Source: Haliclona indistincta (Eukaryota; Porifera; Demospongiae; Haplosclerida; Chalinidae). Taken from it: 64,000 bases of DNA. The stretch is taken from positions 3,944,588 through 4,008,587 of the forward strand of contig OZ024785.1 of NCBI GenBank assembly GCA_964017065.1. Direction: 5' to 3'. This document shows positions 7,234-63,531 of the stretch, piece by piece. A model generated the notes under the pieces. It was not told the origin of the DNA and ran no database searches. It worked only from the letters and a program-made list of their open reading frames with translations. The translations under genes were made by a program, and so were the position numbers. Every line of letters begins with the position of its first letter. The first letter of the stretch is position 1.

Positions 7234-9748
7234 ATGAGGCTTTCAATGAAGCTGCAAGTTCTTGCTATTGGTTTAACTTTGGAATCTCTGATTGTAGCTC
7301 TCTTCTGCATTTGGATCACATCTAAAACTGCTCATTCTGCTGGTTTGTTAGTAATATAATACCTATATGTATGCTCAGTAAAAGCTTATTAATTTTGTTA
7401 TTCTCTAGCACTCACAGAGGGTCCAGTGTCAGTGAGTGCACTGGTTGGAGAGAATGCTCTGTTCCACTGTAATGGTAGTGGTATTACTATAGCATGGACA
7501 GTGGATGAATTTTTAGGAACTGATATCAGAATTGCAGAACGTGGAATAACTTATCATAATACAGTATCATCAGGCACAGTAAAGTCCACTCTCACTGTAC
7601 CAGCAACACTAGTGAACAATGGCACTACTGTACAGTGTATAGTGCTTTCTCTATCTAGTTCAGTGACAAGCAACAATGCTACTCTGACTGTTCTCCTTGG
7701 TGAGCCGTGAACTGTATGCACAATGAATGTATGCATGCATATGCAGGTGGCCCGGTCGTCAATGTGAGGTTCACTCCATCATTCAGTGCTGTACTGTGGG
7801 ATCCTCCAGCAACTGCTGGTGTACTCAGTGGTCTCTCCTATATAGTGATTGTGATGAACAACAACACTGGTCAAGTGATTGTCAGTGACACTACCACCAA
7901 CACTAACTATCCACTACCAGTTCTTGTACTGTGTCAGTACTACACAGCTAATGTGACAGCATTCTCATCTCAGCATCATAGTGAGAGTGTGGTTACTGGA
8001 GGGAGAGCACCAGGAGGTGAGTGAGAGGCCAGATGTACATGAGACAATCAATAAAATTATTGTGCTCAATGATAGTACAAGTAGTATTGTTATTTCTACA
8101 GAGTACTATGAACTTATTGAAGTATCAACAGCTCTGATAGCTAGCTACAATATCACTCATTTTGCTGTTATTTTTGCTGTTAATATACAACAGGTGAGTG
8201 ACTGTATCACTGTTTGTGATTAAACTATTATTATTTCGTATCCATAGCAAAATATTTTTGTTTGTCCTGATCAAGAGCTGTTGCTTGTAACGTATCCATC
8301 TGCAAACAGTTCAGATAAAAGTACACATGTGAAATTGGTTATAACACATCCTGGTGTGATACAGCACACAATCTATGTTAAAAGAAAATGTCATTGTGCA
8401 GCTGATATAATGATAATTGCTAATGACAAAGTGAAAACTGTTCTATTTAGTAAGTCATTCTAGTTGATTGTTTACTTTTACAAACTGGTCATACTGTGAC
8501 AGGTTCCTATAATGTTCAAGACTGTGATGTATCCAGTGACCAGCACACTAGCTCCATACTAGTGGAGTGTACATTTGCCATCAATTCAACAGCACCAGGG
8601 ATTGTAGTGATACAAGATGACCAGAGTCAATATACCATCAACAAGACACTGCAGAGACTGCTACAGGATAGTGATAAAGGATCTGTCAACATTACTGGTC
8701 TGCTAGCAGGAGAGTATAGTGTGAGAGTGTATGACAACAGTCCAGCTACTGACAGCACTAGTGCTGCATATCAGCATTCTCAGTTAGTACACATTATGGA
8801 ACTACCAGCTGGTTCTGCTTCATCAACCATCAATGCAGCATACATGTATACTTCAGGTAATGATCAGTTATAACAATAATTAATTGAAAGCTTGATCTGT
8901 GATAGTACAGCTCGCACAACTCCATAGGCTACAGTGAAACTAGCGAGCGAAAGCGTGTAACTAACTGCTCGTTAGGTGATCCGGAGAGAGCAGAGCAGTT
9001 ACAGTCACGCCCTGCTACACTTGAGCATTGGCTTCACTACAAATTTTATACAACAGCTTGTAGAACTGCTGGATAGCTACTACTGCCTATGCTCCCATAG
9101 GCTCTATTGCTATGATCTGCTGCTTGCCTGCATGTTCCCTGGATCTGCTGGTCACTTCTGCATTGCATGCTTCCATGATACTGTTTGGTGCTTCCATGGA
9201 TCTACTGCATGCATACGTGCTGTCATAATTATGCATCCGCTAATTGCATGCTAGCATACATGCTACTGCACCGAGGCATCTGCACCTTTGGTGCTTTATT
9301 TTTATATAGTAATTGATGGCATCACATCAACACCACAAAATGAGAATGAAAGCAACAACACAATTATACTAGCTTCTTCCATTACTACTGGACTAGTAGT
9401 GTTGCTCCTGTTTGTGATACTGATTGCTAGTGTAGCACTAGTGTGCTCAACTGTTGCTCTGAGAAAAAGAAAAAAGCAGCATTCTAAAGGTTCATAATTA
9501 TAATTATATTCTATGTACTCATTTTATTTTTATCTACTTTAGGAGGTGCTGCAGGTGTTATTGATCATGTTCCTGTTGATGATAATCCTGCTTACATCAC
9601 AATGAAGAGGATCACCTTGAACAAGAACACTGCTTATGAGACTGTTAATATGAAAGATTGTCATTATGAGACTGTTACTGTAGCTGCTGGTGATTATGAG
9701 ACTGCTAAAACTAGTGCAGTTTATGATACTGTTAACAAAATTTGGTAA
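7234..9748 (+). CDS. Receptor R1, Ig-FN3 receptor with ITSM-like tail
   Basis: Eight exons: 7234-7342 (signal peptide MRLSMKLQVLAIGL..), 7409-7699 (Ig: ALFHC, W, VQC), 7747-8016 (FN3: VLWDPPATAG..YYTANVTAF), 8102-8193, 8248-8449 (CPDQ..CHC), 8503-8856 (QDCDVSS..GEYSVRVYD), 9310-9489 (helix TGLVVLLLFVILIASVALVC) and 9543-9748 (tail). Every length fits the splice phases and the frame is open to TAA at 9746-9748. The tail carries NPAYITM (YxxM type), NTAYETV (T-x-Y-x-x-V), CHYETV, GDYETA and AVYDTV, so it is a plausible phosphotyrosine dock for SH2 proteins. It sits at the cell surface as a type I protein. The ligand is unknown. The 453-bp intron before the helix holds a dispersed repeat. Confidence 0.85.
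8930..9295. repeat. Dispersed repeat in the R1 intron
   Basis: This intron is far longer than its counterparts in R2-R6. Its right end reads CACCGAGGCATCTGCACC followed by TTTGGTGC. The same end occurs at about 61757-61784, in weaker form at about 55750, and degraded at about 19537. I read it as the terminus of a short dispersed element. The left border is uncertain. Confidence 0.5.
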
Positions 9749-10356
9749 CCGGAAACAGCAAGTAAATAATCATATTCACGGTTTATTCATAGATATCGAT
9801 CGTCAACCGGCTATGCCCAATAGTTGTACTGTAATAAAAATTTGGCGGCGCGCGCTCACCATCATGGCGGCTAATGAGGACAGTTTTTAGGTACACAATG
9901 CTTCGCCGTTTCTTGACGCAGGCTGCCGTTGCTAGCTGGATTGATTCCCTTAGACATCAGGCCATAGACATTTGCATTGATTTTAACCAAGTAAGCTATA
10001 TCTTCCGTGTAATAGCTGCATATCGACACGTGAGTAGCAGAACTGGCTAATATTCAAGAAACCAGGCTTTATTTCGGGAAAAACTATGCAAATGCATGTG
10101 AAGCACAAGAAGGCAAGTGTGCCAGTAGTATTTATTCTCATCTGTCTTGTGTCGCTGTCGCACATAGTGTACCTAACGCTCGCCAGCAGGCATCGTCCGT
10201 CCCGCTAATGCTGTTTATGCAACAGCACTCAAACCACTAGGTGACTCAAACCACTAGGTGACTGATGAGACCACTAGGTGACTGTGCACCACACACAAGA
10301 ACTCCATAACCAAATGTATTGTAGAAAAAGAAAGGGTAGCTGCATAAAGTATGAAT
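9749..10356. other. Intergenic, GATGGCGGC-type motif, no gene seen
   Basis: A GCGCGCGC stretch and ATCATGGCGGCTAATG lie near 9845-9870. The segment 10235-10280 repeats the phrase AACCACTAGGTGACT several times. I see no coding exon. Confidence 0.4.
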
Positions 10357-11843: not shown

Positions 11844-14800
11844 ATGGCTGATAGAAAGCAGATAACTACGATTTTTTTCGTGGTCGTCAGCATCTTCCTC
11901 AAAACTGCCAGTACCGCTAGTATGTGTTATTGTAAATGACTAGTATGTCTTTTGTTTAAACCTCTGCTCGCTGTTTCATTCTCTAGCGCTCACAGAGGAT
12001 CCGGTGTCTGTGAGTGTACTGGTTGGAGAGAATGCTCTGTTCCACTGTGCTGGTAGTGATGGTGTTGTTACCCTAGAATGGATAGTGGATGGATATTTAG
12101 TAACTGACACTATCATTGTGGAGCGAAGAATCACTTATGATACAGTATCATCAGGCACGATCTTCAAGTCCACTCTCACTGTACCAGCAACACTAGTGAA
12201 CAATGGCACTACTGTACATTGTATAGTGCTTTCTCTATCAGGTTCAGTCAACAGCAGTGATGCTACGCTAACTATTCTCCCTGGTGAGCTTTGCAAGATT
12301 GACAAAGATAGACTATTGTATATGTTGTTGGCTGTTACAGGTATTGATCCAGTTGTCAATGCAAATTTTTCTTCGTTTTTCGGTGGTGTACGGTGGTATC
12401 CTCCAGTAACTGCTGGTGTACTCAATGATCTCATGTATCGGGTGATTGTGGTAAACGACAACACCGATCAAGTGATTGTAAATGGAACCACAAACGGAAC
12501 TTATTATGATCTACCTCGTAATGGCACTAGTACTATCCAGCCATGTCAGTACTACACAGCTAATGTGACAGCATTCTCATCTCAGCATCATAGTGATAGC
12601 GTGGTTTTTAGTCAGATGTCTCCAGGAGGTGAGTTGTGTGTGACATTGCTGATGCTTTAAACCACTCACCTGCAACCACGATTACTTTGTTCCATACTCA
12701 CTCATGCCTATTATGTCAACAATAGTTTCACAATGCTAAGGTTACAGAATTTATTTATTTCTATTCTCTAGAATACTTTGGTCTGAACATTCCTTCATTA
12801 AGGGTGGTCAGCTATAATGACACTCACACTGCTGTTACTTTCAATGTTACAATATTTGAGGTAAGATTTGTTGTTAAAGGTGTTGCAATTACGGGCTAAA
12901 AATGTCAATTATTAACTACAATTTTTGCTTTTAGCGAAAACAGCTTTGTCCTGATCAAGAGTTGATGTCTGTGACATATCCAGTTTCAGACAGTTCAGAT
13001 AGAACTCCACAGCTGGTAGTCAATATAACACAACCTGGTGTGATACAGTACACTGTCTTTGTTGAAAAGAGTTGTCATTGTGCAGCTGACTTTATGATCA
13101 TTAACAATGAGAAAAATATGAGGAGTGTTAATTTCAGTAAGTCACTAGTTGATGTTGTGTTTAATCTGCTCATACTGTGACAGGTTCCTATAATGTTCAA
13201 GACTGTGATGTATCCAGTGACCAGCACACTAGCTCCATACTAGTGGAGTGTACATTTGCCATCAATTCAACAGCACCAGGGATTGTAGTGATACAAGATG
13301 ACCAGAGTCAATATACCATCAACGGCACATTGCAGAGACTGCTGCAGGATAGTGATAAAGGATCTGTCAACATTACTGGTCTACCAGCAGGAGAGTATAG
13401 TGTGAGAGTGTATGACAACAGCTCAGCTACTGACAGCACTAGTGCTGCATATCAGCATTCTCAGTTAATACACATTATGGGACCCACCAGCAATTCAACA
13501 GGTAAATTTAGTTACAGATTGCTAAAGTCATTGATCTTTTTTCTCCACTCAGTTCCTATTACTGTTATCATAATAGGGATACCAGTATTGTGTGTTTCCT
13601 GTGTTATTGGTTTGTGTGTGATTATGATTGTGGTCTCCATCAAGCTTCGTATCCACAGACATATCAGGCAAAGTAATTCACAGTATTGTCACATATTGTG
13701 TTTTGTGATGCTGTATTGATATTCACAGTGTTTGTTGATCTGCCGAAATGTTGTACTAAAGAAGATGATAGGTTTGTCATGTGTTCATTGTTAGTGAGCT
13801 AGCAGTCACTGAGTATGTGTCCTTTGTTATAGATCCATTCATATGAGAGATATTTCACAGGTGAGAATGGTATTGTTGTTCCAAGAATTATAATAATTAT
13901 ACTGCACTAGAATAGTTCTTAGTATTATGACCTCAATAACATGAATACTATTGTCTTTTTTAAATTGGTAAATCCAAACATAGCACATATTGTTATGCTA
14001 AAATTAATAATTTCCTTAAAAGGAATAATAAAAAAAACTAAAGCTAGTAGCCAGCTACACTAATGTTACTTTCTGATGGTAAATATCTGCCATGGTATTG
14101 CATTCCTCAGTTTGCTGATTATTTAACTGGAACTCCTTATTAATTTTTTTGCCTCAGCATGCTGAGTCTTCTGCTCATGGAGATCTGGAAAAAGGTGTCA
14201 GTGACCTTACTCCACCTACTAGTGCTCACGAGGAGGTGACTTTATAGACATTCAAATGTGATTCTCATTTCTGCTGACTAACAGAATGAACAACCAGTGA
14301 ATACAGGACCAGTCTATGCTGATCTTCAGCACTCTGCTAATCCACCAGCTCCCCCTATACCAGTTGAACCAGTACTATATGCTACTGTCACTGGCAATAA
14401 CATAGTCAGACTTCTAAATAAGCTGACTTTGGAACAACAGGTGTGTTATTATTTTCATTTCCTTTTGGTCACTTGTCACATGCATAGTTTAGTAGCCACA
14501 AACTATGTTATAATTGCATAGTATAATACCAGCATAATAACATGCAGAATTCTATAGCAATTAAACTGTTTGTGCTACTGTAGTTTGTGCTACTGTAGAC
14601 TGTAGTTGGTCACATGTTGGTGTGTTCTGTGTAACTATGTACGCTATCTATTTCTTGGGTACACTAAACAGGAACCAGTCTACACTGAACTCTGTCACTC
14701 TATTAATCCTCCTCCATCATTTGCTGAACCAGTACCAATACAACATGATATTGTGATTGCTACAGGCAAAACATCTATAAATGTGAGTGTAAAGTATTTT

Positions 14801-17571
14801 TATAGAAGCAGTTTCAGATTAATTACAATTCCAAATTTTATAAGTGTAAGATGTCCCTTCTCAACACGACCTCCTGCATGATTTCTAACATTAATTTTAA
14901 TAATTTTTTATAGTCTACAAACAAAGATGAACATCCTCACTCTTTCTCATCTGGTTACCATTCAGCACCTAGTGCTGATTTGCCTACTGTATCTACTGAA
15001 TCTACATGTACTGGACCTTTTCAAAAAATCTTTATACAACCATCAGCGTGTAAACCTGACTACCCACAGCTTAATGAATTAGGGCCGCTTTCTGTTCACC
15101 AATCATCTTTAGAAGGTGGAGGTAGGTTTTCTGTGAATTCTGTTACCTAGTAGATAAAGTACTGAGTTACAATAATTGCACTCACTGTACAGTGCATATA
15201 CCTATCACTAGTGCATGTATGATTCCAATGCTGCTATTGTTCAGATTCTTCCAGTGATCATTATCAGCTGCAATCAGAGGAGTGCAATGATACCACCGTT
15301 TGTAAGCTACAATAATTATTGTCATCAGATGGTTTTCATGTTTTTACTCAGCACAAGACCAGCATGTCATTTATAGTCCAGTTAGCGACATCACTCCTAG
15401 TTTGACAGAGAGAGATGAGTGCACTGTGAGAATCCACTCAGGAATGGAACAGAATGCTTTTTTGAAACAAGACCAACTGATTTCTGTGGTACGTGCGCCT
15501 TAGTTTTATCCTGATTCATAATAATAGTGTGGTATATATATATATATTATCATTGCCGATCGGCAATGATATGTAGGGATGACCTCGAACTAAGATGGCG
15601 GCTACTCATGTGTGAAAATGAGTTTTCGCACATATCTCTACTGTTATACATTTCTACTGCATTTTCACTATCTCTAAGGGAATCTGAAGTGCGAGCGCTT
15701 GTAGGAAGTCTAAGAAAGTCGCCGGGACTGCTTGCTTGTCGACGAAAATCAAGATGGCGACTCTCAGGGAGGTCGTTGCAGATCTTGGCTGTTGTAGCGT
15801 TTATCGAGATTCCAGACATCTAGGATTGATCAGGCGATTGTTCTGAGCATGGAAATACCTTTGGCGAAGCGGGCAGACGTTTCTAAAGTGGTAAACAGAA
15901 ATCGCCGCCCACGCGAATTGTTCATCTTCTTCTTCTTTCTTCTTCTTTCTTCTTTCTTCTTTCAGTAAGCCTGACGCTGTCCTGAGTGAACGAATCACTA
16001 CCAAACCTTCACAATTGCACGTGTATATACCTGGAATAGTGCACTTACGTCTTAGATAGGCATTAAACACTACCAGAAGCGAGTAATCCTTGAAAAACAT
16101 GGTTTTTAGACCGTTTTGGACTGAATACGCCATTAAATAATTAACCCTATTGTCGCTACTTATTATTGACTCCGCCCACATCAGCTTTGCAGCTATCTCG
16201 ATGGATACTTCGTTTGTCTCTGGTCTGGACGCTTGAGCGCGCAAGCCAGAGGTATGAAATTTGTCTAGAGCTGTACTATACTCTAAATAACACTGATCTG
16301 TTTGTTAAAGCTTTAGATGGCTGGTTAAAACTGACATGCCCAGACGTGAACCGCCGGGGCTGAGTACTGTACCGGCGCCGCTTACCTACGCACAGAAAGG
16401 TTCCTACACCACGCAGCGTAAGGACTAGAAGCCACTGTGAGTGTGATATTGGCATCAACAAGATTCTACTAGGCGTGGTCCAATTCAGTGTCAGTATTAG
16501 TCAGTCTTCATCCATTACAGTACTAACAAGTATCATGTTGTCAAATCTGTCATACATGGACTTGATATTTTAAACCTTTCATTGAATGATTGGTAATATT
16601 AAATGATTATTTTAGACCACACTCCTTACTCTCAAGACCCGTGCACGTTCACATCTGCATGCTAGACTAGTAACTCAGTGCGCTGCTCACAGAGTTGTCA
16701 AAATGAAATAACATCTAACATAGAATAAGTTCAAACTGGTAGTGATCAAAAAAGTAACAGGAACAAGTAAAGTAAAAAAGCTTTAATAAAAAAACTGAAA
16801 AGTGTAGGGATGACTCTTAAAAAAGGAAAGGAACAAGATGGGATGATGCTTGCAAAAGTAAAGGAACAAGATGGAATAATGCTTGCAAATGTAAAAGTCC
16901 CAAGTATCCCTACATCAGCGGCTTGAAGGAGGACGCAGTCCGATGACGTAATTGACGGTTCTAAATAACTAGAGGTATCTGTGTTTGGAGGACGCAGTCC
17001 GATGAAGTACTTGACGGTTGTAAATAACTAGAGGTGTCTGTGTTTAGGAGGACGCAGTCCGATGAAGTAGTTGACTGTTGTAAATATGCTGCAGGTAGCT
17101 GTGTTTGGAGGACGCAGTCCGATGAACTAATTGATGGTTGTAAATGTATAGGAAGAGGATTCCGCAATTGTCAGTTGCACGTTGTCGCAACAAGCCGCTG
17201 ATGTAGGGATACTTGGGACTTTTACATTTGCAAGCATTATTCCATCTTGTTCCTTTACTTTTGCAAGCATCATCCCATCTTGTTCCTTTCCTTTTTTAAG
17301 AGTCATCCCTACACTTTTCAGTTTTTTTATTAAAGCTTTTTTACTTTACTTTATATATATATGTACAATTCACGAATCACTATAGGCGAAACCAGTAGAG
17401 ATAAAGAATGAAGTGATGGTTAGCACAGGGATCAGACCTGATAGCTGTTACGAATTAGACCACTTGGTAAGTGCTGTAGTCTTAGTTATCAAAATAAAGG
17501 CAAGTAACTCCTAACCTTACTAGCCTCATGCACACCAAAGCTACCAATTAATTATGGGAAGGTGGATATAA
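11844..17571 (+). CDS. Receptor R2, Ig-FN3 receptor with long ITIM-type tail
   Basis: Ectodomain exons: 11844-11919 (signal MADRKQITTIFFVVVSIFL), 11987-12283 (Ig), 12341-12628 (FN3), 12772-12860, 12935-13136, 13184-13501. Helix 13553-13672 (VLCVSCVIGLCVIMIVV). Tail exons: 13729-13771, 13833-13860, 14158-14235, 14285-14440, 14672-14782, 14914-15121, 15245-15301, 15352-15488, 17386-17466 and probably 17524-17571 (ends SYQLIMGRWI). All phases agree. The tail holds GPVYADL, VLYATV (fits ITIM), EPVYTEL, HVIYSPV, SDHYQL and SCYEL. A cassette tyrosine is replaced in VPIQHDIV. Its Ig and FN3 exons are the most divergent of R1-R6. The intron 15489-17385 is occupied by composite insertion 2. The last exon is the least certain. 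Confidence 0.8.
15548..17346. mobile_element. Composite insertion 2 with foldback and inner minisatellite
   Basis: Head: a perfect 24-bp palindrome, half TATCATTGCCGA (15548-15571), followed by TGTAGGGATG. Then AAGATGGCGGCTAC (about 15592), AAGATGGCGACTC (about 15751), a TTC-rich tract (15927-15965) and a stretch alike to insertion 1 (GCATTAAACACTACCAG, AGCGAGTA). The end is a foldback: arms about 16775-16922 and 17195-17346 are inverted copies that each contain a TAGGGATG-type word. Between the arms lie four tandem units of about 60 bp (see separate entry). It sits in a tail intron of R2. Non-coding as far as I can see. Confidence 0.65.
16923..17165 (+). repeat. Four-copy ~60-bp minisatellite inside the foldback
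   Basis: Each unit starts with GGAGGACGCAGTCCGATGA (near 16928, 16987, 17048 and 17107), followed by TTGACGGTTGTAAAT. The core GGACGCAGTCC is itself palindromic. The units differ by a few substitutions. Confidence 0.75.
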
Positions 17572-25269: not shown

Positions 25270-25314
25270 CTTTGAGTACAGCAGCAGGGGTCGCACCAAC
25301 TCTCGTCGCCAATA

Positions 25315-25464
25315 TGTAGTATCTTTTGAGAAATAATTCTTATTATTATTATTCTGATTTGACCTGAATATGACACAGTATTTATACCAGTTCAACATGA
25401 TTGTTCAAATTTACATAATCACAGACTCCAGACATCTGGCACCAGTTGTTCGAAATATACCACA
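25315..25464 (-). repeat. 5' LTR (150 bp)
   Basis: Identical to 21750-21899; followed in element sense by the candidate primer-binding site. Confidence 0.93.
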
Positions 25465-42009: not shown

Positions 42010-45135
<3,126 letters not shown>

Positions 45136-45239: not shown

Positions 45240-45322
<83 letters not shown>

Positions 45323-49100: not shown

Positions 49101-49562
49101 CATGTACACCCTGTGAACATATCTATTAACTTCACGTCAAGCGATAGTTCTAGTAAGTCAATATGTGTATATGTGAACTGTATAACTCATTGTGCATCTT
49201 ACTTTCACTTGTAGCCGGTGATACTGAAGGTGATTCAAAGCACACGGTAGCAATTTTCCTATTGTACTTTCACTGCAGGCAACCATCAGGCAATAGTTAT
49301 CCCTCTGGTGATCGTACCATTAGTAGTAACGATAGTTGTCCTCCTTATAGTAGCTACGCTATCATACATAAGGAAGTCTCATAGAAGAGGTTCGTATAAT
49401 CAAAACAAGGAGCACAAATCAAGCTTTACTTGATTTTCAGGTGTTGTGCGTCTGCGTCGAAGTTCTGGAACGGATGAAAAGAATGATCAACAAACTGAAA
49501 AGTGCATTATAATGCAGCTAATGGTATTATGCACACATTCTCTCCTTTTACAGAGACAGTAA
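46110..49562 (+). CDS. Receptor S2, second subfamily
   Basis: Exons: 46110-46185 (signal MQGVPLVLLPILQFTLLVGI), 46256-46531 (Ig-like: LIECKANC..LICRTF), 46578-46865 (FN3: TTISWSRPPAVLDG..PCCPSYFSVTPVA), 48447-48535, 48589-48799, 48844-49152 (LCVTCYFAPW..INFTSS), 49215-49229, 49279-49389 (helix IVIPLVIVPLVVTIVVLLIV), 49441-49523 and 49554-49562 (stop). All phases fit and no stop interrupts, so this copy looks functional. The tail is short and basic and has no tyrosine at all, unlike R-type tails. It resembles the short-tailed partner expected in a paired-receptor set, though the helix has no charged residue. The 1.58-kb intron after FN3 contains composite insertion 3. Confidence 0.82.
46954..48353. 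mobile_element. Composite insertion 3: hairpin head and foldback end
   Basis: Head hairpin TAGGGAGGC / GCCTCCCTA (46954-46979), directly followed by TGTAGGGATGGG. Then AAAATGGCGGCTAC (about 47001), a TTC-rich tract (about 47180-47217) and GCGCCTAGCACC. A low-similarity middle follows (GGGGGG near 47640 and 47815). It ends with foldback arms about 47958-48105 and 48205-48353, each containing GATGTAGGGAT-type words. Same order of parts as insertions 1 and 2. It sits within an S2 intron. Confidence 0.6.
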
Positions 49563-49874: not shown

Positions 49875-52820
49875 ATGGAGTCAGTGCTAGTGAGACCTCG
49901 TTTTAGTCGACAAGTCAGTTTTACTCTCTCTCTGATCAAGTGGTCGGCATGGATTGGCTTGTTGATTTTCCCGAATTTAGCATGGAGCACCTGTGGTAAG
50001 TCAAAGGGACCATGCCTATAATATTCAAGAAACTCGGTTATTATATATGGTAGTAAATACTTACTTTTTCTCTGTGTAGGATTCGACAGCTTTCCCTCAG
50101 TCTATGCTACTGTGAACAAGACTGTAATGGTTAAGTGTAGATCGAACTGTACACCAATCCGGATACTTCATGTGGTTGACGACAGTGAGACCGATGAAGT
50201 TGACCCTCAATCAGAAGATTCCGTCCTTAATGAGAGCTACCCGTACGTCACCATTGCTGCTATCCACTTGGATCTCACCTACAATGATACTGGTCTCATA
50301 TGTAAAGCTGTCAGTGTGCCCTCTCAGCCGAGCACTGATGTAGCCTGGATACACATTCAAGGTAACGGGTACTATGCTATTTTAGTGTGTCTGTTACAAC
50401 AGTGCCTGTTGCAGATTTTTTACAAGCTGTTAAAAATTTAAGACCCGCTTTCAATGCTACTCATATACAGTTCAAATGGGAACCTCCTCCTGTGCTAGAA
50501 GGTATTAAACTACGATACAAAATCCATCTGTTTCGTGAAGGTGTGGTTATCGTCAACGATACCGTCAATCGAACTAACTATGTGGTCGGCTTCAATTGTC
50601 CTTGTCAGCCGTCTTGTTTTGTAGTCACACCAATAGCTGGGTTGTTAGTGGGAGAAGAGCAGGTTATCAGTCCTGGACCTAACTGTACTGAAGGTAAAAT
50701 TATAGCAGTGTTGTCTTAAATTACATGCTTGATTCTTTTATCATCTGCTTATACACAGATGATCCCAAAATCTCGCTTAATAAAAATGGATTTGTGAAGA
50801 ATATTGTTGCTGGTTTAGTGAGAATTGCATTTAAAATTCAGGTCTGTTATATCTTGATTTAGCATTTTTAGCTCTTCTTCATCTATAGACATTCAACAGT
50901 TGGTGTTTGCCGTCTGCAGCTGTAATGCATGCTCACTGTCAACACACACACGTACACAAGATTCACACGTTCGGTCAATTTGTCTGCGATGATAGTATCA
51001 TCAAGCTACTCAGCCCAAGCAGTGCCAGTCTGCCTGCACACGACTTCTGCACTGTTTCTCTGACTCTGAAGTTCAGCGATAACTACACTGCACCTCCTCA
51101 AGATCCTTTCAATATTAGTAAGTTTTTAAATTTGTGAGTGAGTGAGTGAGTGAGTGAGTGAGTGAGTGAGTGAGTGAGTCAGTGAGTGAGTGAGTGAGTG
51201 AGTGAGTGAGTGAGTGAGTGAGTGAGTGAGTGAGTGAGTGAGTGAGTGAGTGAGTGAGTGAGTGAGAGAGTCAGTGAGTCAGTGAGTGAGTCAGTGAGTG
51301 AGTGAGTCAGTGAGTCAGTGAGTGGGTGAGTGAGTCAGTGAGTGAGTGAGTCAGTGAGTCAGTGAGTGGGTGAGTGAGTGAGTGAGTGAGTCAGTGAGTG
51401 AGTGAGTGAGTGAGTGAGTGAGAGAGTCAGTGAGTCAGTGAGTGAGTGAGTCAGTGAGTGAGTGGGTGTGTGAGTGGTTACTGTCTCCTCACTAGAATAG
51501 CTGTGTGACTACTTGTGGATAGTTCATGAGTGATTTTGGCAACAGTTATTCTGATGATTCTTTTTATATTCTCTGAAGTTACTAGTTCTGTGTTCTATAG
51601 GTTTATTTGACACACAGTTAGCTACTATAGAACTCATGGAAAGCTCTCCTGCTCTTTGTGTGACATGTCACCTTGCTGTGTGGGCTAAAGATGCTTTAGA
51701 GTGCATCGTGTATATTCGTATCCCTCGCGATCAGAACCCGACGTTTTATGAAAACAAGACTACATCTGAAGGACAATTAGCTTGTTTCCAGGAACTTCCA
51801 ACAGATAGACGCCTCTCTGTCTACATTGCAGTTTTTGATGAAGACCGGCGCTATATGCATCGTGTTGCTATCCGCAATGAGACCTGGATTAATTTCACGT
51901 CAATTCAACGTAAGCCTTTGTGCACATTGTTTTACAATTTCTACTCTTTACAGCTGGTAATAAGATTCCTCCTAACAATGGTATATTGATGGCTTTTATG
52001 AAACCATGCAATCATTCTTTTGTTTTACAGATGATAGTCATCAAATAGCTAAATCAGTTCCGCCTGTGGTGTTTCTACTGGCAGCAGTAGTGATAGTGAT
52101 TGTCGTAACATCATGCCTGGCGTACCATTTTTTATGGAAAAGTGATAGCACAGTCCAGCACACGTTTAGTTCATGTTTATCAGATCAGAGGAAGAGCAGC
52201 ATATCACTGAAAATTCCAAAGAAGTATGCAACTACATTGTAGCATTAATTTTGATACGTTATAATGTTATTGTCGTTCAACAGGATGGATCGGGCAGCAG
52301 TAAAGCAAGAACTCGGGTATTTATTTTGATTTTCTGTACATCACTTTTGGATTATTTTCTTCCAGTGATGGTGTTGGTACATTTACGTACTTAGAATCAC
52401 ACGAGGTGCAAAAAGATGGTGACTCATCTTTTCAGTGAGTAAGAACAAAACTGTGACATTTAATATTATTGTTCTCCACAGGTCTGGTGTATCTAGCCAA
52501 CTTTTAATACCAGGCAGTCAAACGAATGAAAAGTATGTGGTGGATTTGTAACGTACTGAATTCCGTCTATTTCTGCAGAATTGACAGGCAAGTGTCGTGG
52601 CGGTCTACATCCACATATTATTCTGCGGGAAACAGGTCGGTTATGTCAGTACATTGTATGGTCTCATTGTATGTGTGTTCATGAGACTTTATTTTTCATA
52701 ACTGTGTAGGTCAGATTGTTCTATTAGTGGTCTTGATGAACTAGTAAGTAACAAGTGATGGATTTACACATCATGCACTGTTTATTATTGTAGTCAAGCG
52801 ATGGATCGGAACAATACTAG
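49875..52820 (+). CDS. Receptor S3, second subfamily, intact, long tail
   Basis: Exons: 49875-49995 (signal ..WSAWIGLLIFPNLAWSTC), 50080-50361 (Ig-like), 50415-50693 (FN3), 50759-50841, 50889-51117, 51601-51909 (LCVTCHLAVWAKDALEC), 51954-51980, 52031-52223 (helix PVVFLLAAVVIVIVVTSCLA), 52284-52316, 52366-52434, 52482-52532, 52579-52635, 52710-52743 and 52794-52820 (stop TAG). Every phase fits. Ig and FN3 exons are close to S1 (RSNCTPIRIL, FNATHIQFKW). The serine-rich tail is divided over tiny exons and has FTYLESH, STYYSAG and SEQY at its end; none is a clear ITIM. A GAGT repeat fills the intron after 51117. Confidence 0.83.
51134..51478. repeat. (GAGT)n tetranucleotide repeat, about 345 bp
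   Basis: GAGT units with CAGT variants, in the intron after exon 50889-51117. This is the same intron position that holds the TG microsatellite in S1. Confidence 0.95.
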
Positions 52821-52941: not shown

Positions 52942-53088
52942 TTCACTTGTGTACAAGTACTGCTACTGGTGGTGCTGATACAGTATGTACTGTGGAGTAT
53001 GCACTGTTCTCTTGTACTGCAATACTCTTCAGTGTGACCTGCTCATAAGCAGGATTACCACTCACTGCTATCACATCCTGTGGTGGAG
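52942..53088 (-). pseudogene. Alternative tail exon of the broken receptor D1
   Basis: The minus strand reads APPQDVIAVSGNPAYEQVTL.. then NSAYSTVHTVS to TGA at 52944-52942, behind an acceptor TTTTCCAG. It is the counterpart of the D2 tail exon at 60166-60347, but needs a slightly shifted acceptor because one base is lost upstream. It belongs to D1, whose ectodomain is broken, so it is probably not expressed as a receptor tail. Confidence 0.55.
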
Positions 53089-53710
53089 CTGGAAAACTAA
53101 TGCTGCAAATAGTCACTTAACAATAATTATTTCTTCTTTGAGAGTCAGAAGAGGAAGCAGCTAAGAACAGCATTGAATCATTGTGGTATAAACAATTTTA
53201 GCAATCACCCTCCTAGTGATGTACTCCACCTCTTGATTCAGGCTCTTTATGCAGTGCATTGACTGAATGCCCATACATGCTTGTATAGCTGCTGGCAGTG
53301 ATTGTTAAGGAAGCCATTAGAGATTCCCTTTCACAATGCACTTAGCTGTGTTTATTTAGGAATACACCTATGATTACCAACTAATGGATGGTGACAATGG
53401 GTCCCTCCTATAGTGGTGTTTACAACTAGTGTTTACAACTAGTGTTTACACTGCTTTGGTAATATTATTCTTGCATTAGCTACTTCAGAGTGTTGTTATG
53501 GATGGCTCTAGTTCCATGAATTATCACATGCAATGTCAGTCACTGTCAAAATATCCTTGACTTGCATGCATCTATGGTAAGATTCGGTTTATCACGAACA
53601 ATATCAAAATGAAGATGCAATTTGGAAATGTTAATTCTCTTTAAGATTTGTTACAATGGAATTTATAATAACAATGATGCATGTGTACAGGCTCTGTCAA
53701 TTCTCAGTAG

Positions 53711-54930
53711 CTATTTTATGACATTGTATGCATTATTTTCACACACATCAATCCTTTGTGATGGTTTTGACAATTCAGCATACACTGGATTTTCACTCGT
53801 CATGATAAAATCCTCTCGACTAGCTTGTGCTTCTGAGATTCGACAGTTAAACTGCAGTACAGTGCACTCAATTTAATATACCTTGGATTTTAACATGCCT
53901 CCTCTTTAAACCATACAGCAGTAGCGCTGTTGATAGCAGCAGAACCAGGACAACGCCAACAACAGGTGAAGCTACCATGGCAACCACTTCAACAGTTGAT
54001 AAACATAGCAAGGCTGTGTGCAAGGAATAAATAGTAAAATCGATTTTTATTTGACAAAAATAATTATACCATTGTTATCAACTGGTGCAATAAAAATTAA
54101 TGATGTGCTGTTTGTAATGGAGTCAGTATATTTCATAGAAGAAGTCTTAGTTATAATAATATTGGTATCTGTAGCAATAACAATTACATTGGATATAGTA
54201 CTGCTAGGTAGTGTGTACAAATTACCTGGAATTGCTATCATGTTAGTAGATAACACTTGAAAAATGGAAGGTTTTGGTAGAGAAATGGTAGTAACAGCTG
54301 GCTCTCCTGGTCCAGCTCCATTGATGGGTACCACAGTGACAGTGAAGTTGTTGTCAGGATCAGGATGGCCAATGGAGTAGTACAGCATGGTAGTGTCCCC
54401 CTCTACTGACATTGTCTCATTCTCTCCACTGGTGGTGTTGGTGATGGTGACATTGTAGCCCAGGATGGGTACCCCCTCCAGAGTGAAGGGAGGACTCCAG
54501 GAGATGAGGACAGTAGTGGAGTTGATGGAGACCACAGTGAAGTTACTGACTGACTCTAACAGACCTATGAAATTTCTTGCAATTTAACAATAATCGTAAT
54601 ACACAATATACCTTGAACAAGTAGTAATGCTGGTTCACTTTTATTTCCCACAAACAGTAGTTGAGAATATTCTAGAATAGCAACACACACAATGCTTGCA
54701 TTGTTACTATGTGCAGATCCAAGCACTTAGTGATGCTGTGCGCAGGCTTTGTGAGGCATCAAGAACAACTACTGCTAGTTCGTGAAATCCTTTGTTCTCA
54801 TAGTCAGTATTGAAACTATCATCGTTTACTTTCCAGTTGAGATCTGTTGCAATAGCAGTGCTGAGTTGAACACAGCATGATCACCACTGGAGATATTGAC
54901 AGACTGTGGAGAGATGATGATACCTGCATT
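53711..54930 (-). pseudogene. Receptor D1, broken duplicate of D2
   Basis: The minus strand carries an Ig exon (about 54925-54613), an FN3 exon (about 54563-54070; SWSPPFTLEGVPILGYNVT), a helix exon (54013-53882) and a tail (53832-53711: ENPVYAEL, NNAYNVIK, stop). Compared with D2, the Ig exon has a 2-base gain near 54853 that removes the first Ig cysteine (FNC becomes FNS) and a 2-base loss near 54733. The leader is unrecognisable. FN3 and helix are over 90% identical to D2 by eye, so the damage is recent. Confidence 0.75.
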
Positions 54931-55212: not shown

Positions 55213-58200
55213 ATGTGCTCGACAATAATGTGTAGCGTGACTGACACTGTCTGTTTTCTTTTCAGCGTTGTATCGCTACTGGTGATTTCAGATGCTTCGC
55301 CCAATATAAGTGAGTTTGATTTTATGTTTACACGATGATGAGTGCGCTACCCTAGCTAGCGCTAGTAGTCTCAGTCATGTCATGTCAGTCTCCTTTGTTA
55401 TGCCTCGGTGGGCGGAGCTACGAGGCATAGGTCAGCGAGTAGGTCAGTCCTCGGGTCAGTCATGCCGTGACCCCGTCTGTTACTTCAGTCTTGCGGCGCA
55501 CGCTGAACTATGCGAGCCCTGAAACTAGCAATGCATTAGAAGTTGTAGAACTCCATATTATCTTGCTTTTCAATGGCTGTTGCTGGCGATCTGGAGTTCT
55601 CCGTAGACATAAATATCCACAGTTGACTGCCTAGAAGCTGATAGGTTAGAATAGCAGCGCATGTCTAAAGAAATTGGGTGTAAGCAAGCTATGAACGCTA
55701 TCTCGCTCGTGTGCTGTGCCGTGCTGAGTGAATTGGTGGCATTTCACCTAGGCATCTGCACTTTGGTGCTTCATTGATGAAAGTCATTCGTGCCTCCAGC
55801 AGCATGGTGGGACCAAGAGAAATGATACCTTTGTCTTTTTATAACTGTACGGTGTTGTTTTAATCTCAGTTCATGACAGGTTACTATAATTATTGTCAAC
55901 TTATCGTAGATCTTCTGATCTGAGTCGACTACGGGCCCTTCTCTTTATGTTACTCTTAAATTAATGATGGAAATTGTAAAAATGCATGAGTCTTTGTAAG
56001 ATTTTAGAACGCAAGGGCGCATGATTAGGTTTAGATAGCACTTGGCTGATGCATTGCATCATCCACCCCATATAAAGTGCATAAAAGCACTCACATTATA
56101 TAAAGCACGTGCACGTGCTTCATATACAGAGCCTGGTTCTGTGTAAGGAACTTAATTAGTACAGTGTCAAGGTTGTTTATGCAGTTTAGTATATAGAAGC
56201 AGTCTAATAGTACTACACGAATCTCACTACAGGTATTGTTGCCCCACCTAAGTCGGTAAACACCACCAGTGGTGAAGATGCCATGTTCAACTGCACGGCT
56301 ATTGCAGACTATATCAACTGGAAAGTTAATGATAGCAGCATTGATTCTAACCTCATGAAAAGAGGATTCGAACCACAATCATTGGTTAATGTGAATGCCT
56401 CAAAAAATTTACGAATGAAATCTCTGGTAGTCTCTGGATCACCTGACAATAACAATACCAGAATAGTGTGTGTTGCTGTAGTAGAGACATCCTCTGGAGA
56501 ATTTTTATCTAACCAAAGTGAACCGGCACTGCTTATAGTTCAAGGTAACTAACTGTACCCAGGAACCCATTTTGTATTTATTTATTTATCGTTACTATTC
56601 AGATCCAATTGGTCCTATCAATCCTAATTCTGTCCCTATTGATGAAACTGGATCAGAAGAGCATTCAACACAGTCAGAGCTTGTTTTTTGTAAGTATACA
56701 TATTGAATGGTAGGAAATGATGTGTATGCAAATGGGACAGTAGCATAATGAATTTACTGACATCACATAAAAAGCATGTCTCCCTCTCTCTCTCTTCCTC
56801 CGTCCCTCTTTCTCCCTCCCTCCCTCCCTTCCTTCCTTCCTTCCTTCCTTCCTTCCTTCCTTCCTTCCTTCCTTCCTTCCTTCCTTCCTTCCTTCCTTCC
56901 TTCCTTCCTTCCTTCCTTCCTTCCTTCCTTCCTTCCTTCCTTCCTTCCTCCCTCCCTCCCTCTTTCTCCCTTCCTCCCTCCCTCCCTCTTTCTCCCTTCC
57001 TCCCTCCCTCCCTCTTTCTCCCTTCCTCCCTCCCTCCCTCTTTCTCCCTTCCTCTCTCCCTCCCTCTTTCTCCCTTTCTCCCTCCCTCTTTTTCCTCCTT
57101 CCCTCTCTTTCTCCCTCCCTCCCTCCCTCCCTCCCTCCCTCCCTCCCTCCCTCTTTCTTCCTCCCTCCCTCCCTCCCTCCCTCCCTCTTTCTTCCTCCCT
57201 CCCTCCCTCCCTCCCTCCCTCCCTCCCTCCCTCCCTCCCTCCCTCCCTCCTCCCTCTCTCCCTCCGGCCCTCTTTCCCTCCCGCCCACCATTTTCAATGA
57301 TGCAAATAAGTACACTTGTTATAGTGTGGATGTAGCTAAAACATGTTATGACAACATCTGCTGCAAGCACTATTCATATGTGCCTTCATCTCTATGTTTT
57401 TCTCCATTAGCATAATGTAGGAGGATTATGATGTGTAATAAGTTTGTAGTACACGTCCGGTATGTTAACACATAAAAATATTTCTCAGCAACTACAGGCA
57501 GTACCTTCTCAACTGGCTCATCCAACTCTGTTACAAGTATGCATTACATGTATACACGAACACAAATTAATTGCTATGATTGTGAATTTTGTACATATAG
57601 GCACCAGTATCAGTACAAGCGAAACATCTGTTCTACCAACCCCAACATCAATAGCTGATAGTAGATGTAATGCTGGTAAATGCTTTTGTTTGATATTATG
57701 TAATAAGTTTTCATGACTAAAACAGTCGGGATTGCCATTGGTGTGATGGTCTCCTCTCTAATAATAATATGTTTAGTGGTAGTCTTGATCCTATTTGCAT
57801 GTTATTCTTGCAGGAAGAAGTGTAAGCAAGGTATGTTTTTATTAAAAAATAATGAACAACTTTTGTTCTTTTTTGTTAGCATTTTCAAATTCAAGACAAA
57901 AACAAATTGATGTTGAGGTAAATACTGAAAAAGTTTTAAACTGTATTTCGTGAGTTCATCTTTCTACAGGCGAACGAACTTGAGCAACAAGACAATAATC
58001 CGGTATTGATGACATGTGTATTAAAATATTGTAAGTATATAATTTTCATTCAGCACCAGGTACCTCCTACTGATGATTCTTTTAAACCAGCTAATGAATT
58101 ACCAGAAGCATCGGTATGCCAATTTTCTTTACTGTACACGCTCACATATTGTTTCTTTCTGCCCTTATTTGTTACTGGACAGCAATCTCCAAAATTATCA

Positions 58201-60165: not shown

Positions 60166-60347
60166 CTATAATATTGCTTTCGTTGATTTTTTTTTATACC
60201 TGTACTGAGCTACTGGTGGTGATACAGTATGTACTGTGGAGTATGCACTGTTCTCTTGTACTACAATACTCTTCAGTGTGACCTGCTCATAAGCAGGATT
60301 ACCACTCACTGCTATCACATCCTGTAGTGGAGCAGGAATAACTACTG
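60166..60347 (-). CDS. Alternative tail exon of receptor D2
   Basis: Behind an acceptor (TTTTGTAG) the minus strand reads AVVIPAPLQDVIAVSGNPAY.. with NPAYEQVTL, ENSAYSTV and VAQYRYKKK, stop at 60166. Its phase allows splicing from the D2 helix exon (62497-62366), skipping the nearer tail exon. The paired NPAY.. and AY.TV layout equals the R1/R3/R5 tail (NPAYITM, NTAYETV). It could instead be an orphan exon. Confidence 0.55.
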
Positions 60348-60543
60348 CTACAAAATTAATAGTCACTTAACAATAATTATTTCTTCTTTGAGAGCCACAA
60401 GAGGAAGCAGCTAAGAACAGCATTGAATCATTGTGGTACAAACAATCAATCACATCGTGATGTACTCCACCTTTTTATTCAGACTCTTTATGCAGTGCAT
60501 TGACTGAATACCCATACGTGCATGTATAGCTGCTGGCAGTGAT

Positions 60544-61785
60544 TATGCCTCGGTGGGCGGAGCCACGGGGCATACGCGGTAGTCGGTTTGTGTATGTATG
60601 TATGTGTGTATCTGTCTGTCTGTCGGCAGGATTTCTCGTCGCTCGCTGAAAACTAAGCGCTGAAACGTGCAACACAAGCTAAAGTCGATATTTGCTTGAA
60701 AATGAATTGTAAGGATTTTGGTTATAAGGCTCTGTTCGTGAGTTACCTCGTCACCTGGTTAAGTTTTGTAGGCGCACGCTGTAAATTAAGCTCTGAAACT
60801 AGCAATGCAAGTAGAACACGGTATTATCTCGCTTTCGATCATGTGAAAACTTCATACGAAGCTTAGTTCATGAGTTATGGCGCAATTTGCTCCCTCGCGA
60901 TTTATCATGGCTGTTGCTGGCGATCTGGAGTTCTTCAAAGGCAAAGCTATCCACAGTTGACTACCTAGAAGCTGATAGGTTAGAATTTCACTACAGGATA
61001 GCAGCGCTGGCCCAGAGAAATTGTGTTAGCAAGCTATGGAAGCTATCTCGCTCGTGTTCAGTATAATTATGCATGGGCAGTACTAGCCTCGCCTCCAGGC
61101 CACTCCCCCTGCTGAGGAGATGGCCTGGTCCAGACTGTCTGCGCATGCTCCAATATTACCAGTAAAACCTGGTAATCAGTAAAACATCGAACACGATCGG
61201 GGCATTTAACGCACACTATCGAGACATGTCCGTTTCATCTTCCTATTGGAACAGCTAGTTTAAACTACGCAAGAAGGCTTCTGGTGCATACATGCTGTTG
61301 TACCCAAAAGAAATGGCGTTTTTGGTCTCGAGAGAGTGATTCTAGCACACGGAAGTCGGTAGATCGTCAAGTGGGCGTGGCTAACTTCGCTCGCAAGCCA
61401 TCGCGCAAGAATCACGTTGTGCTAGTTGATATTGCGTATTATCAGTGATCACAGCACTAGTTTGTACGAGTAATGGTTACAAAGGTTAGTGAAATGCACA
61501 GAAACAAAGGCTAGAATTACTGTCCGCACTTTGAGGGTTAAGGAAAATCTTCGCGCATGCGTATGCAGTCATTACCAGGCCATTATATAAAAATGGCCTG
61601 GATGCGAGGCTAGGGTAGTACTGAACATTGTAGACACGCCCAGTTGAATTGTGGTCAGCACTGATTGGCTTCAGCTGATTGCATAACTATTGCTTTGTGA
61701 TTGCTGTACAGAAAGGTATAATAGCTGCAGTTACTGTGTATGTCAAATGTTCCACCGAGGCATCTGCACCTTTGGTGCCTAGTTG
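60544..61785. mobile_element. Hairpin-headed insertion within the D2 locus
   Basis: Comparison with the D1 copy gives the borders. D1 reads GGCAGTGATT|GTTAAGGAAGCC without interruption, whereas here 1.24 kb lies between the two halves. It starts with TATGCCTCG / CGGGGCATA (one G-T pair; 60544-60574) and ends with CCACCGAGGCATCTGCACC and TTTGGTGCC. A second element is nested inside (61083-61613). No coding capacity seen. Confidence 0.7.
61083..61613. mobile_element. Nested element with 20-bp terminal inverted repeats
   Basis: CTAGCCTCGC.TCCAGGCCA at 61083-61102 is inverted at 61594-61613 with one mismatch. About 530 bp, no ORF; a non-autonomous DNA transposon by structure. Confidence 0.6.
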
Positions 61786-62070
61786 TTAAGGAAGCCATTA
61801 GAGATTCCTTTCACAATGCACTTAGCCTGTGTTTATTTAGGAATTCACCTATGATTACCACCTAATGGATGGTGACAATAGGTCCCTCCTATAGTGGTGT
61901 TTACAACTAGTTACTGTTTACACCGCTATGGTAATATTTTTCTTACAATAGCTACTTCAGAGTGTCCTTATGGATGGCTCTAGCTAGTTCCATGAATTAT
62001 CACATTCAATGTCAAAATAAGATTGACTTGCACGCATCTATAGTAAGATTATGTGTATCATGAGACAATT

Positions 62071-63531
62071 TCAAAATGGAGCTGCATGTAAAATAAGTTG
62101 GAAATGATAATTCTCTTTAACATTTGTTACAATGGCATTTACGTATAATAACAATGATGCATGTGTATAGTCTCTGTCGTTTTTCGGCAGTAGGTTTTTT
62201 ATGACGTCGTATGCATTATTTTCACACACATCAATCTTTTGTGATGGTTTTGACAATTCAGCATACACTGGATTTTCACTTGTCATGATAAAATCCTCTC
62301 GACTAGCTTGTGCTTCTGAAATTTGACAGTTAAACTGCAGTACAATGCACTCAATTTTAATATACCTTGGATTTTAACATGCCTCCTCTTTAAACCATAC
62401 AGCAGTAGTGCTGTTGATAGCAGCAGAACAAGGGCAACACCAACAACAGGTGAAGCTACCATGGCAACCACTTCAACACTTGATAAACATAGCAAAGCTG
62501 TATACAAAGAATAAATGAGTAAAATAGATTTTTATTTGACAAAAGTATACCATTGTTATCAACTGGTGCAATAAAAATTAATGATGTGCTGTTTGTAATG
62601 GAGTCAGTATATTTCATAGAAGAAGTCTTAGTTATAATAATATTGGTATCTGTAGCAATAACAATTGCATTGGATATGCTACTGCCAGGTAGTGTGTAGA
62701 ACTTACCTGGAATTGCTATCATGTTGGTAGATAACACTTGAAAAATCGAAGGTTTTGGTAGAGAAATGGTAGTAACTGCAGGCTCTCCTGGTCCAGCTCC
62801 ATTGATAGGTACCACAGTGACAGTGAAGTTGTTGTCAGGATCAGGATGGTCAATGGAGTAGTACAGCATGGTAGTGTCCCCCTCTACTGACATTGTCTCA
62901 TTCTCTCCACTGGTGGTGTTGGTGATGGTGACATTGTAGCCCAGGATGGGTACCCCCTCCAGAGTGAAGGGAGGACTCCAGGAGATGAGGACAGTAGTGG
63001 AGTTGATGGAGACCACAGTGAGGTTACTGACTGGTTCCAGTAGATCTATGACATTTCTTGCAATTTGACAATAATCGTAATACACAATAATTATACCTTG
63101 AACAAGTAGTAACGCTGGTTCACTTTTATTTCCCACAAACATTAGTTGAGTATATTCCAGAATAGCAACACACACAATGCTTGCATTGTTATTATGTGCA
63201 GATCCAAGCACTCTTAGAGATGCTGAGCGCAGGCTTTGTGAGGCATCAAGAACTACCACTGCTAGTTCGTGGAATCCTTTGCTCTCATAGTCAGTATTGA
63301 AACTATCATCATTTACTTTCCAGTTGAGATCTGTTGCAATTGCTGTGCAGTTGAACACAGCATGATCACCACTGGAGATATTGACAGACTGAGGAGAAGT
63401 GATGATATCTGCAGCATTTTGCATTGAGATGTAATAATTTTGTACAACATATTATTCTTACCTGCTTCTTGCGAGAATACTGCATCATGTAGCAGTAGCA
63501 CACAGAATAGCAGCAGAGCGAGCTGAGCCAT
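62071..63531 (-). CDS. Receptor D2, Ig + FN3 receptor with tyrosine tail
   Basis: Exons in transcript order: 63531-63462 (signal MAQLALLLFCVLLLHDAVFS), 63408-63097 (Ig: VFNCTAIATDLNWKV..IVCVAIL), 63045-62551 (FN3 SWSPPFTLEG..GPGEPAV plus a stalk), 62497-62366 (helix VVAMVASPVVGVALVLLLST and LLLYGL) and 62315-62071 (tail). The frame is open throughout and phases fit. It has no counterparts of the short and Cys exons of R and S genes, so it is a simpler plan. The tail has NPVYAEL, NNAYDVI, LLYVNAI and ENYHFQL, of which LLYVNAI contains a YxN (Grb2-type) site. A second possible tail lies at 60166-60347. Confidence 0.85.

Follow-up and report, generated by a model that had tools for sequence, protein, structure and literature searches.

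The LILR, KIR and Siglec proteins of vertebrates are clustered type I receptors with immunoglobulin (Ig) domains and pairs of immunoreceptor tyrosine-based inhibitory motifs (ITIMs), which recruit SHP1 or SHP2. The recognition candidates of sponges, in turn, are the aggregation factors, which are secreted proteoglycan-like proteins. Among other animals, the excerpts of the respective papers give 41 Alr genes for the Hydractinia allorecognition complex (PMC11999971) and 22 for that of Podocoryna (PMC13119343). The Hydractinia proteins are described there as clustered Ig-type receptors, some with motifs of the ITIM type or of the corresponding activation type (ITAM) (PMC12065747, PMC11999971), and the FcoR proteins of the Botryllus fuhc locus as receptors of the Ig superfamily that bear ITIM or tyrosine-core motifs and have an Ig-sushi-Ig-Ig ectodomain (PMC12065747). 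The excerpt of the latter review reports such motifs from cnidarians up to mammals, among them the candidates of Hydractinia and Botryllus, and names no sponge that has them; it also describes the candidate proteins for allorecognition as not conserved among sponges, cnidarians and ascidians. Here we describe a large cluster of Ig-type receptors with tyrosine-bearing tails in the sponge Haliclona indistincta (assembly GCA_964017065.1), starting from a window of 64,000 nucleotides (C3:3944588-4008587, contig OZ024785.1) and searching the genome of 144.0 Mb in 46 contigs. Positions without a contig label are those of the window.

The genes probably form a diversified sponge receptor family in which recognition is signalled through tyrosine motifs and proteins of the SHP2 type, as far as can be read from their sequences. 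To judge by these descriptions, the sponge cluster looks as if it operates in the manner of the ITIM-type Ig receptors of Hydractinia and Botryllus and of vertebrate LILR and KIR, but we do not file it as Alr. Unlike the Alr genes, its members have an ectodomain of Ig, fibronectin type III (FN3), D3 and D4 units, occur in more copies, carry tails with repeated YADL and VQYATV motifs and appear to be homogenised exon by exon. The same Ig-FN3-D3-D4 order separates them from Botryllus FcoR. The vertebrate receptors differ from the sponge ones, which have FN3 units, NPxY motifs and, in the tail kind named T1 below, no basic residue in the membrane helix, and a profile of whole family-A receptors, searched against the PDB to E 1, gave no LILR, KIR or Siglec chain. 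In contrast to the secreted aggregation factors, the proteins described here are membrane receptors with tyrosine-bearing tails.

Cytoplasmic tails and tyrosine motifs

The largest family in the window, family A, comprises six receptors with Ig, FN3, D3, D4 and transmembrane (TM) exons, besides the smaller families B to E, and the tail motifs sit in exon-like frames 3' of the Ig, FN3 and TM exons that repeat in register. Two kinds of tail were found. T1 contains NPAYITM, TAYETV and xHYETV (GVIDHVPVDDNPAYITMKRITLNKNTAYETVN..HYETV), which amounts to an NPxY site, a YxxM site, a site like the immunoreceptor tyrosine-based switch motif (ITSM) and often an ITIM-like site; NPAYIT is present in nine of the 10 T1 pieces from 254 kb of the complex. 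T2 repeats pairs of the YADL and VQYATV type in tandem units of the type EPVYADLHHSTNPPAPPLPVEPVQYATV, the YxxPhi tyrosines being spaced 21-24 residues apart in most steps, both within and between units, with spacings of 32 and 83 also occurring. Tails of family D carry NPVYAEL, NPAYEQV and SAYSTV and are similar to T1 (44% identity, E 1e-5).

All motif strings named in a preliminary description of the window were located: VQYATV at 30332 and 31195, VQYADI at 30549, 30979 and 31397, VLYATV at 14372, SHYADL at 30269, 30588 and 31018, TAYETV at 9629, 27858 and 35512, and YITM within AYITM at 9590, 27819 and 35473. The strict ITIM pattern [SIVL]xYxx[LIV] fits VQYATV, VQYADI, VLYATV, SHYADL and SHYETV, but not EPVYADL because of its proline at -2.

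Motif counts were compared with 5000 shuffles of the tails and with a second null, a six-frame translated background. Over all 45 tail tyrosines, strict ITIMs (11 against a shuffle mean of 2.1), YxxPhi sites (31 against 8.9) and NPxY sites (5 against 0.23) reached numbers seen in 0/5000 shuffles, and YxxM (4 against 0.74) and ITSM (3 against 0.57) reached numbers seen in 23 and 85. When each kind of tail was counted once (30 tyrosines), the six ITIMs (mean 1.42; 16/5000 shuffles), 20 YxxPhi sites (0/5000) and three NPxY sites (2/5000) stood out, and two YxxM (511/5000) and one ITSM (1416/5000) were not significant. The non-redundant YxxPhi (20/30, p 2e-5) and NPxY (3/30, p 2e-4) counts also clearly exceed the six-frame background, against which the excess of strict ITIMs is borderline. 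The expectation that tail motifs are commoner than in shuffled tails holds for ITIM, YxxPhi and NPxY and is not significantly borne out for non-redundant ITSM and YxxM. NPxY, the motif that most exceeds its shuffled number in relative terms, was absent from the preliminary description, whose proposal of ITIM-, ITSM- and YxxM-like tails on clustered Ig/FN3 receptors is otherwise supported.

The accompanying idea of paired receptors as in vertebrates found no such support. No basic residue (K/R) was seen inside the TM stretches of the receptors A1, A3 and A5, and the short T1 tail bears ITSM- and ITIM-like tyrosines (TAYETV, SHYETV), so that a classical pairing of activating and inhibitory members is not supported. 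A weaker form of pairing exists, in that T1 and T2 tend to alternate over 170 kb reaching into the window and that some T2 units have Cys for a motif Tyr. The latter units lie at 19909-19986 and 20382-20474 of the window and at C3:3883434-3883556, and are possibly decoy or decaying tails.

SHP2-like and SYK-like genes

The search for SH2 domains yielded 90 matches in the genome. Two open reading frames (ORFs) on C9, of 577 and 564 amino acids, encode proteins with two SH2 domains followed by a protein tyrosine phosphatase (PTP) domain, the shorter having PTPN11 as its best PDB match. A third SH2-SH2-PTP gene with several exons is located at C2:12784001-12789000 (six-frame ORFs, judged by eye), bringing the tandem-SH2 phosphatases of the genome to three SHP2-like genes. 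The pair at C9:7648001-7656000 consists of single long frames, as opposed to the multi-exon copy on C2, and might represent retrocopies or intron-loss duplicates. The locus C8:9493801-9499800 has two SH2 exons with the best PDB matches ZAP-70 and SYK (E 1.1e-35 and 2.4e-35) and, by eye, a kinase-like exon.

The SHP2-like proteins also bear on the origin of the DNA. For one of them, the best named relative among the best 120 of 5421 matches is from Amphimedon queenslandica, with 64% identity across 92% of the query. Proteins of Dysidea, Oscarella and Ephydatia in the same set show 55-58% identity. In a tree of 24 rows, both single-ORF proteins group with Amphimedon (100/99) and next with Ephydatia (100/99), which bears out the earlier assignment to a sponge-like genome; under a midpoint root, Dysidea, a demosponge too, falls on the opposite side with Oscarella and bilaterians. 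We conclude that the DNA comes from a demosponge close to Amphimedon but distinct from A. queenslandica. One SHP2 of the genome is 100% identical to a database protein, and the database protein P0008 is 99.6% identical to the receptor gene at C3:3815196; both are probably from the same species. A pattern for the silicatein active site had 0 matches in the genome and 1 in the reversed control, the site possibly being split by an intron or different in sequence; silicatein was rejected as a test of origin, which rests on SHP2.

Structure of the ectodomain

The core Cys/Trp/Cys of an Ig fold is present in 20 of 21 aligned family-A Ig exons, the exon at 3841874 being without the Trp. Single Ig members, which were scanned first, stayed under the Pfam cut-off. 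At E <= 0.1, the Pfam family ig matches 12 of 20 family-A exons (best 1.1e-6; one of the 21 was omitted as it spans two loci) and Ig_3 matches 11 of 13 family-D exons (best 7.3e-6), confirming the initial identification of Ig exons. Against the PDB, the family-A Ig profile finds antibody light chains (best E 4e-4), and the family-D profile has no match at 0.01. The FN3 identification stands for the tested proteins of families B and D, which pass the Pfam cut-off; those of families A and C remain below it, the family-A FN3 model matching solved FN3 domains, cytokine receptors among them.

The predicted Ig-FN3 model has a predicted local distance difference test score (pLDDT) of mostly 75-95 in its Ig part, and the Foldseek matches of this two-domain model include NCAM Ig5-FN1, CD22 and the Ig part of PTP delta, but EpoR as well; taken over both domains, the TM-scores are near 0.3. 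A second model is poor in its D3 half (pLDDT 24-51, by tens). D4 is an FN3-like, nearly uniform exon adjoining the membrane. The profile of whole family-A receptors matches PDB chains at E 0.066 or worse only; the leading fold matches included neither Alr nor KIR chains, apart from one KIR3DL1 row at E 0.011, and this result excludes nothing. The protein searches, both of which considered a limited number of candidates, gave no named homolog among 11 matches, nor among the best 120 of 199 matches listed.

Extent of the complex

The D4 search scored 150 matches of 204 candidates, which are not gene counts because some exons are split or partial. The main cluster at C3:2,851,868-3,981,916 holds 103 of them, and the remaining 47 are distributed over C6 (13), C4 (11), C3:16.2 Mb (8), C5 (7), C7 (3), C9 (2), C10 (2) and C1 (1). 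The family-A Ig search likewise scored 150 matches, of 273 candidates. Of 120 T1 matches, 89 are in the main cluster (C3:2.85-3.98 Mb), and the 54 T2 pieces, several of which can belong to one gene, are found on C3 (51) and C7 (3). The genome thus holds a tandem cluster of Ig-type receptors, as expected of a complex of the Hydractinia type. Since the A cluster ends within the window and family D extends to about C3:4.45 Mb, the window, judged by these matches, contains the right edge of the A cluster, where the A-rich part of a complex of roughly 1.6 Mb meets its D-rich part.

At C3:3.81-3.99 Mb, 21 of 23 units combine Ig, FN3 and D4 (nine with T2, eight with T1 and four without a found tail), and two are partial, with T1 or no tail. 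Of the nine T1 units, seven precede a T2 unit and two precede one in which no tail was found. Among the 18 tailed units (the five tailless ones omitted), T1 and T2 alternate in 14 of 17 steps (shuffle p 0.012), with a unit grouping that assigns a headless tail, described below, to A2. The idea that the whole complex consists of T1-T2 pairs was rejected: T1 matches (120) outnumber T2 pieces (54) genome-wide, so T1 is the prevailing kind elsewhere in the cluster.

Three pairs of matches have identical scores (C3:4079130 on the reverse strand and C3:4344588 on the forward strand; C3:4272073 and C3:4318313; C1:16375291 and C3:2871160), which suggests recent segmental duplications, the first one inverted, or assembly duplicates. 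Further dense blocks of FN3 exons, probably other tandem families, are located at C10:6.1-6.5 Mb, C1:5.9-6.35 Mb, and C5:0.92-1.03 and 5.1-5.2 Mb.

Divergence between exons

The divergence estimates rest on 254 kb of the complex in one assembly and omit pieces below 85% of full length (IgA 3/24, FnA 6/24, D3b 6/22, D4 8/25, FnD 5/14, T1 4/10), as well as one of 14 IgD pieces, which has stops. For exons of the same family-A genes, the mean pairwise synonymous divergence (dS) is 0.106 in D4, 0.224 in FN3, 0.335 in Ig and 0.818 in D3b; in family D it is 0.175 in FN3 versus 1.215 in Ig, the D3b and IgD means being lowered because saturated pairs (6/120 and 18/78) were dropped. D4 has a lower dS than D3b in 78/78 gene pairs, than Ig in 114/120 and than FN3 in 76/91. 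Within the Ig exon itself, the frameworks hardly vary and enclose a variable core, with a dS of 0.18 in the framework versus 0.70 in the C-D plus FG blocks. Because a single neutral rate cannot yield such a spread of dS within one gene, we infer that homogenisation limited to exons, or to parts of exons, shapes the receptor genes.

Receptor units and other features of the window

The gene models are predictions from region-wise gene finding and homology, whole-strand runs having fused adjacent genes. With 16 receptor-like units in the window, four of them partial or degenerate (the headless tail, second copies of B and D and a lone D-type Ig exon), the earlier count of a dozen or so linked type I receptors proved accurate.

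All six family-A receptors are on the forward strand. A1 (7409-9748) comprises Ig (7411-7701), FN3 (7749-8016), D3 (8101-8193 and 8248-8451), D4 (8505-8798) and TM (9354-9485) exons and a T1 tail (9543-9748) with NPAYITM, NTAYETV, HYETV and VYDTV; its start exon is unsettled. A2 (11844-15121) has a signal peptide (11844-11919), Ig (11987-12283), FN3 (12341-12628), D3 (12771-12860 and 12944-13138), D4 (13186-13479) and TM (13546-13668) exons and a T2 tail (14158-14782) with VYADL, VLYATV and VYTEL, after which the exons are uncertain. The headless tail follows on the same strand (18689-20504). It has a TM-like exon and exons of a T2 tail but no ectodomain, shows VQYTTV, LHYAEV and VYADL and has Cys for the second-site Tyr in two units. 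A3 (26058-27911) consists of Ig (26058-26350), FN3 (26397-26667), D3 (26733-26825 and 26880-27080), D4 (27142-27435) and TM (27544-27723) exons and a T1 tail (27777-27911) with NPAYITM, NTAYETV and SHYETV.

A4 (28025-31432) begins with a likely signal peptide (28025-28118), followed by Ig (28204-28493), FN3 (28547-28816), D3 (28867-28959 and 29010-29213), D4 (29262-29557) and TM (29795-29926) exons and a long T2 tail (30046-31432), whose full length is uncertain because in-frame stops touch two repeat units. As only about 0.3 kb separates the A3 stop from the A4 Ig exon (27911-28206), with the likely signal peptide exon in between, A3 and A4 are nearly contiguous. A5 (33712-35541) is built of Ig (33712-33998), FN3 (34051-34323), D3 (34374-34466 and 34523-34729), D4 (34778-35073) and TM (35197-35379) exons and a T1 tail (35437-35541) with NPAYITM and NTAYETV. 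In A6 (36015-37680), exon matching at the locus gave Ig (36015-36301), FN3 (36365-36637), D3 (36684-36770 and 36829-37035), D4 (37088-37326) and TM (37597-37680) exons and no tyrosine tail. The signal-peptide scan found a good exon for A4, doubtful candidates for A1, A3 and A5, and none for A6 or A2, whose exon came from an earlier model.

The family B receptor (39717-41885, reverse strand) has a signal peptide (41885-41828), Ig (41609-41302), FN3 (41162-40882; Pfam fn3 E 3.6e-7), D3 (40669-40379), D4 (40325-39961) and TM (39905-39717); a degenerate second copy (1508-2307, reverse strand) is missing the TM helix and has broken frames. Family C is represented by three forward-strand receptors: the first (42206-43779) with Ig (42206-42485), FN3 (42538-42811), D3 (43015-43245) and D4 pieces (43482-43779), the second (46256-49388) with Ig (46256-46531), FN3 (46614-46867), D3 (48604-48801), D4 (48843-49139) and TM (49272-49388), and the third (50079-51902) with Ig (50079-50361), FN3 (50414-50693), D3 (50889-51119) and D4 (51600-51902). 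The family D receptor (60208-63531, reverse strand) has a signal peptide (63531-63462), Ig (63409-63095), FN3 (63040-62756) and tail exons at 62316-62200 (NPVYAEL, NNAYDVI) and 60333-60208 (NPAYEQV, SAYSTV), the joining of the last one being uncertain. Its degenerate copy (52958-54921, reverse strand) combines an Ig exon with stops, an open FN3 (54559-54275) and tail pieces (53833-53717 and 53089-52958), and the lone D-type Ig exon is at 56235-56546 on the forward strand. The family E receptor-like gene (2951-6245, forward strand) has domain exons at 2951-3208 and 4934-5227, a TM near 5365-5451 and a Ser/Thr-rich tail with few Tyr.

Between the receptor units, a Gypsy-type retroelement-like ORF (21925-25404, reverse strand) shows CCHC knuckles and, by eye, reverse transcriptase-like and integrase-like stretches. 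Long simple repeats (TG, CA, GTGAGTGA and CTCC) occur at 43247-43450, 45217-45318, 51134-51476 and 56812-57286, in and between the family C and D genes, and are possible recombination sites.

Possible functions

In the proposed mechanism, the Ig face would bind a ligand carried by an adjacent cell or by a microbe, and a Src-type kinase would then phosphorylate the tail tyrosines. Doubly phosphorylated T2 pairs would recruit tandem-SH2 proteins such as SHP2, dampening or tuning the signal, and the NPxY and YxxM sites of T1 would recruit phosphotyrosine-binding (PTB) or PI3K-type adaptors. The diversity of the repertoire would arise by tandem duplication and exon-limited homogenisation, through gene conversion or unequal exchange, which would keep stalk and tail uniform while the recognition exons diverge.

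The receptors could belong to innate defence, as a repertoire directed at microbes or symbionts that expanded in this lineage and whose tails set the threshold at which phagocytic cells are activated. We consider this possible, if short of probable: the very high copy number, the satellite clusters on other contigs and the presence of SYK and SHP2 speak for it, and the absence of a named homolog among the matches listed fits a fast-turnover defence family, but Ig-FN3 receptors also serve adhesion. Slightly less weight is given to allorecognition proper, in which the Ig cores would differ by individual and a match or mismatch on contact would be read via the ITIM-like tails. The cluster architecture, the Ig receptors and the ITIM-like tails parallel the excerpted descriptions of Hydractinia Alr (PMC11999971) and Botryllus FcoR of the fuhc locus (PMC12065747). 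The variable Ig core inside a constant frame would suit such a role as well. Published work on sponges, however, puts forward aggregation factors as the candidates, and we regard allorecognition as rather unlikely. Moreover, the words immunoglobulin, receptor and tyrosine are absent from the text of the Amphimedon graft transcriptome (PMC5450542). A similarly doubtful alternative is that these are ordinary adhesion or cytokine-receptor-like molecules with tails used mainly as NPxY and YxxPhi sorting or PTB sites, the ITIM likeness being incidental. NPxY is strongly enriched (5/45 overall, 3/30 non-redundant), YxxPhi doubles as an endocytosis signal, the non-redundant ITIM count is borderline against the background, and the FN3 domain matches cytokine receptors; yet T2 repeats pairs of tyrosine sites at 21-24 residues and the tails hold 11 strict ITIMs in total, where one site suffices for sorting.

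Several observations weigh against a diversified family signalling through tyrosine motifs and SHP2-type proteins, which we nevertheless prefer. SHP2 and SYK occur in animals generally, and their presence is necessary but not specific: the pathway is available, and its use is not implied. The excess of the non-redundant strict ITIM count over the six-frame background is borderline (0.092 per Tyr, p 0.05). Among the 35 T2 pieces of the 254 kb, the first tyrosine site is matched in 22 and the second in 21, while other pieces are cut short or show Cys, His or another letter at a motif Tyr, and the A4 tail has one in-frame stop at a repeat-unit edge and one inside another unit. All seven exon classes have a mean dN/dS under 1 (0.47-0.73), as does every Ig block; the variable Ig blocks together give 0.76 (column bootstrap 0.53-1.05), and the value of the conserved E-F framework (0.79) is not below that of the variable C-D block (0.70). 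Because the mean stays below 1, the data do not show diversifying selection, and this was rejected as a demonstrated feature. Constraint at synonymous sites could also give a low exon dS. In its full form, this explanation holds that D4 and the Ig frameworks are under strong coding and synonymous constraint, for example by a nucleic-acid signal, rather than subject to gene conversion. The introns flanking the conserved exons are mostly far diverged, near shuffled values, as it would predict. However, the intron 5' of D4 is common to many genes, near letter for letter, and different in others, as tract edges would leave (mean identity 0.575 versus 0.36-0.39 shuffled), and the dS of D4 and D3b are uncorrelated (Spearman -0.02); we deem constraint improbable as the source of the exon pattern.

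Significance

In the literature, titles and abstract openings among the matches listed (for example 20 of 554 and 15 of 849) report no ITIM-type receptor in a sponge, though this speaks only weakly for absence. The link by ITIM/ITAM-type motifs would be extended to Porifera by a cluster with tails of this type in a sponge that also has SHP2 and SYK. The cluster supplies concrete genes for grafting and cell-aggregation work, and its exon-wise mosaic is a good system for studying how a repertoire stays uniform in signalling yet diverse in binding. The furthest-reaching proposal, which we hold unlikely, is that over a hundred Ig-FN3 units in a complex of megabase scale, whose stalk and tyrosine tails are kept constant by homogenisation of single exons while an Ig core varies, constitute a sponge self/non-self system with ITIM-like/SHP2 signalling. 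If true, this would place the ITIM logic of natural killer-type recognition at the base of the animals. The tails of the cluster suggest that recognition systems with immune-type tail tags may date to the earliest animals.

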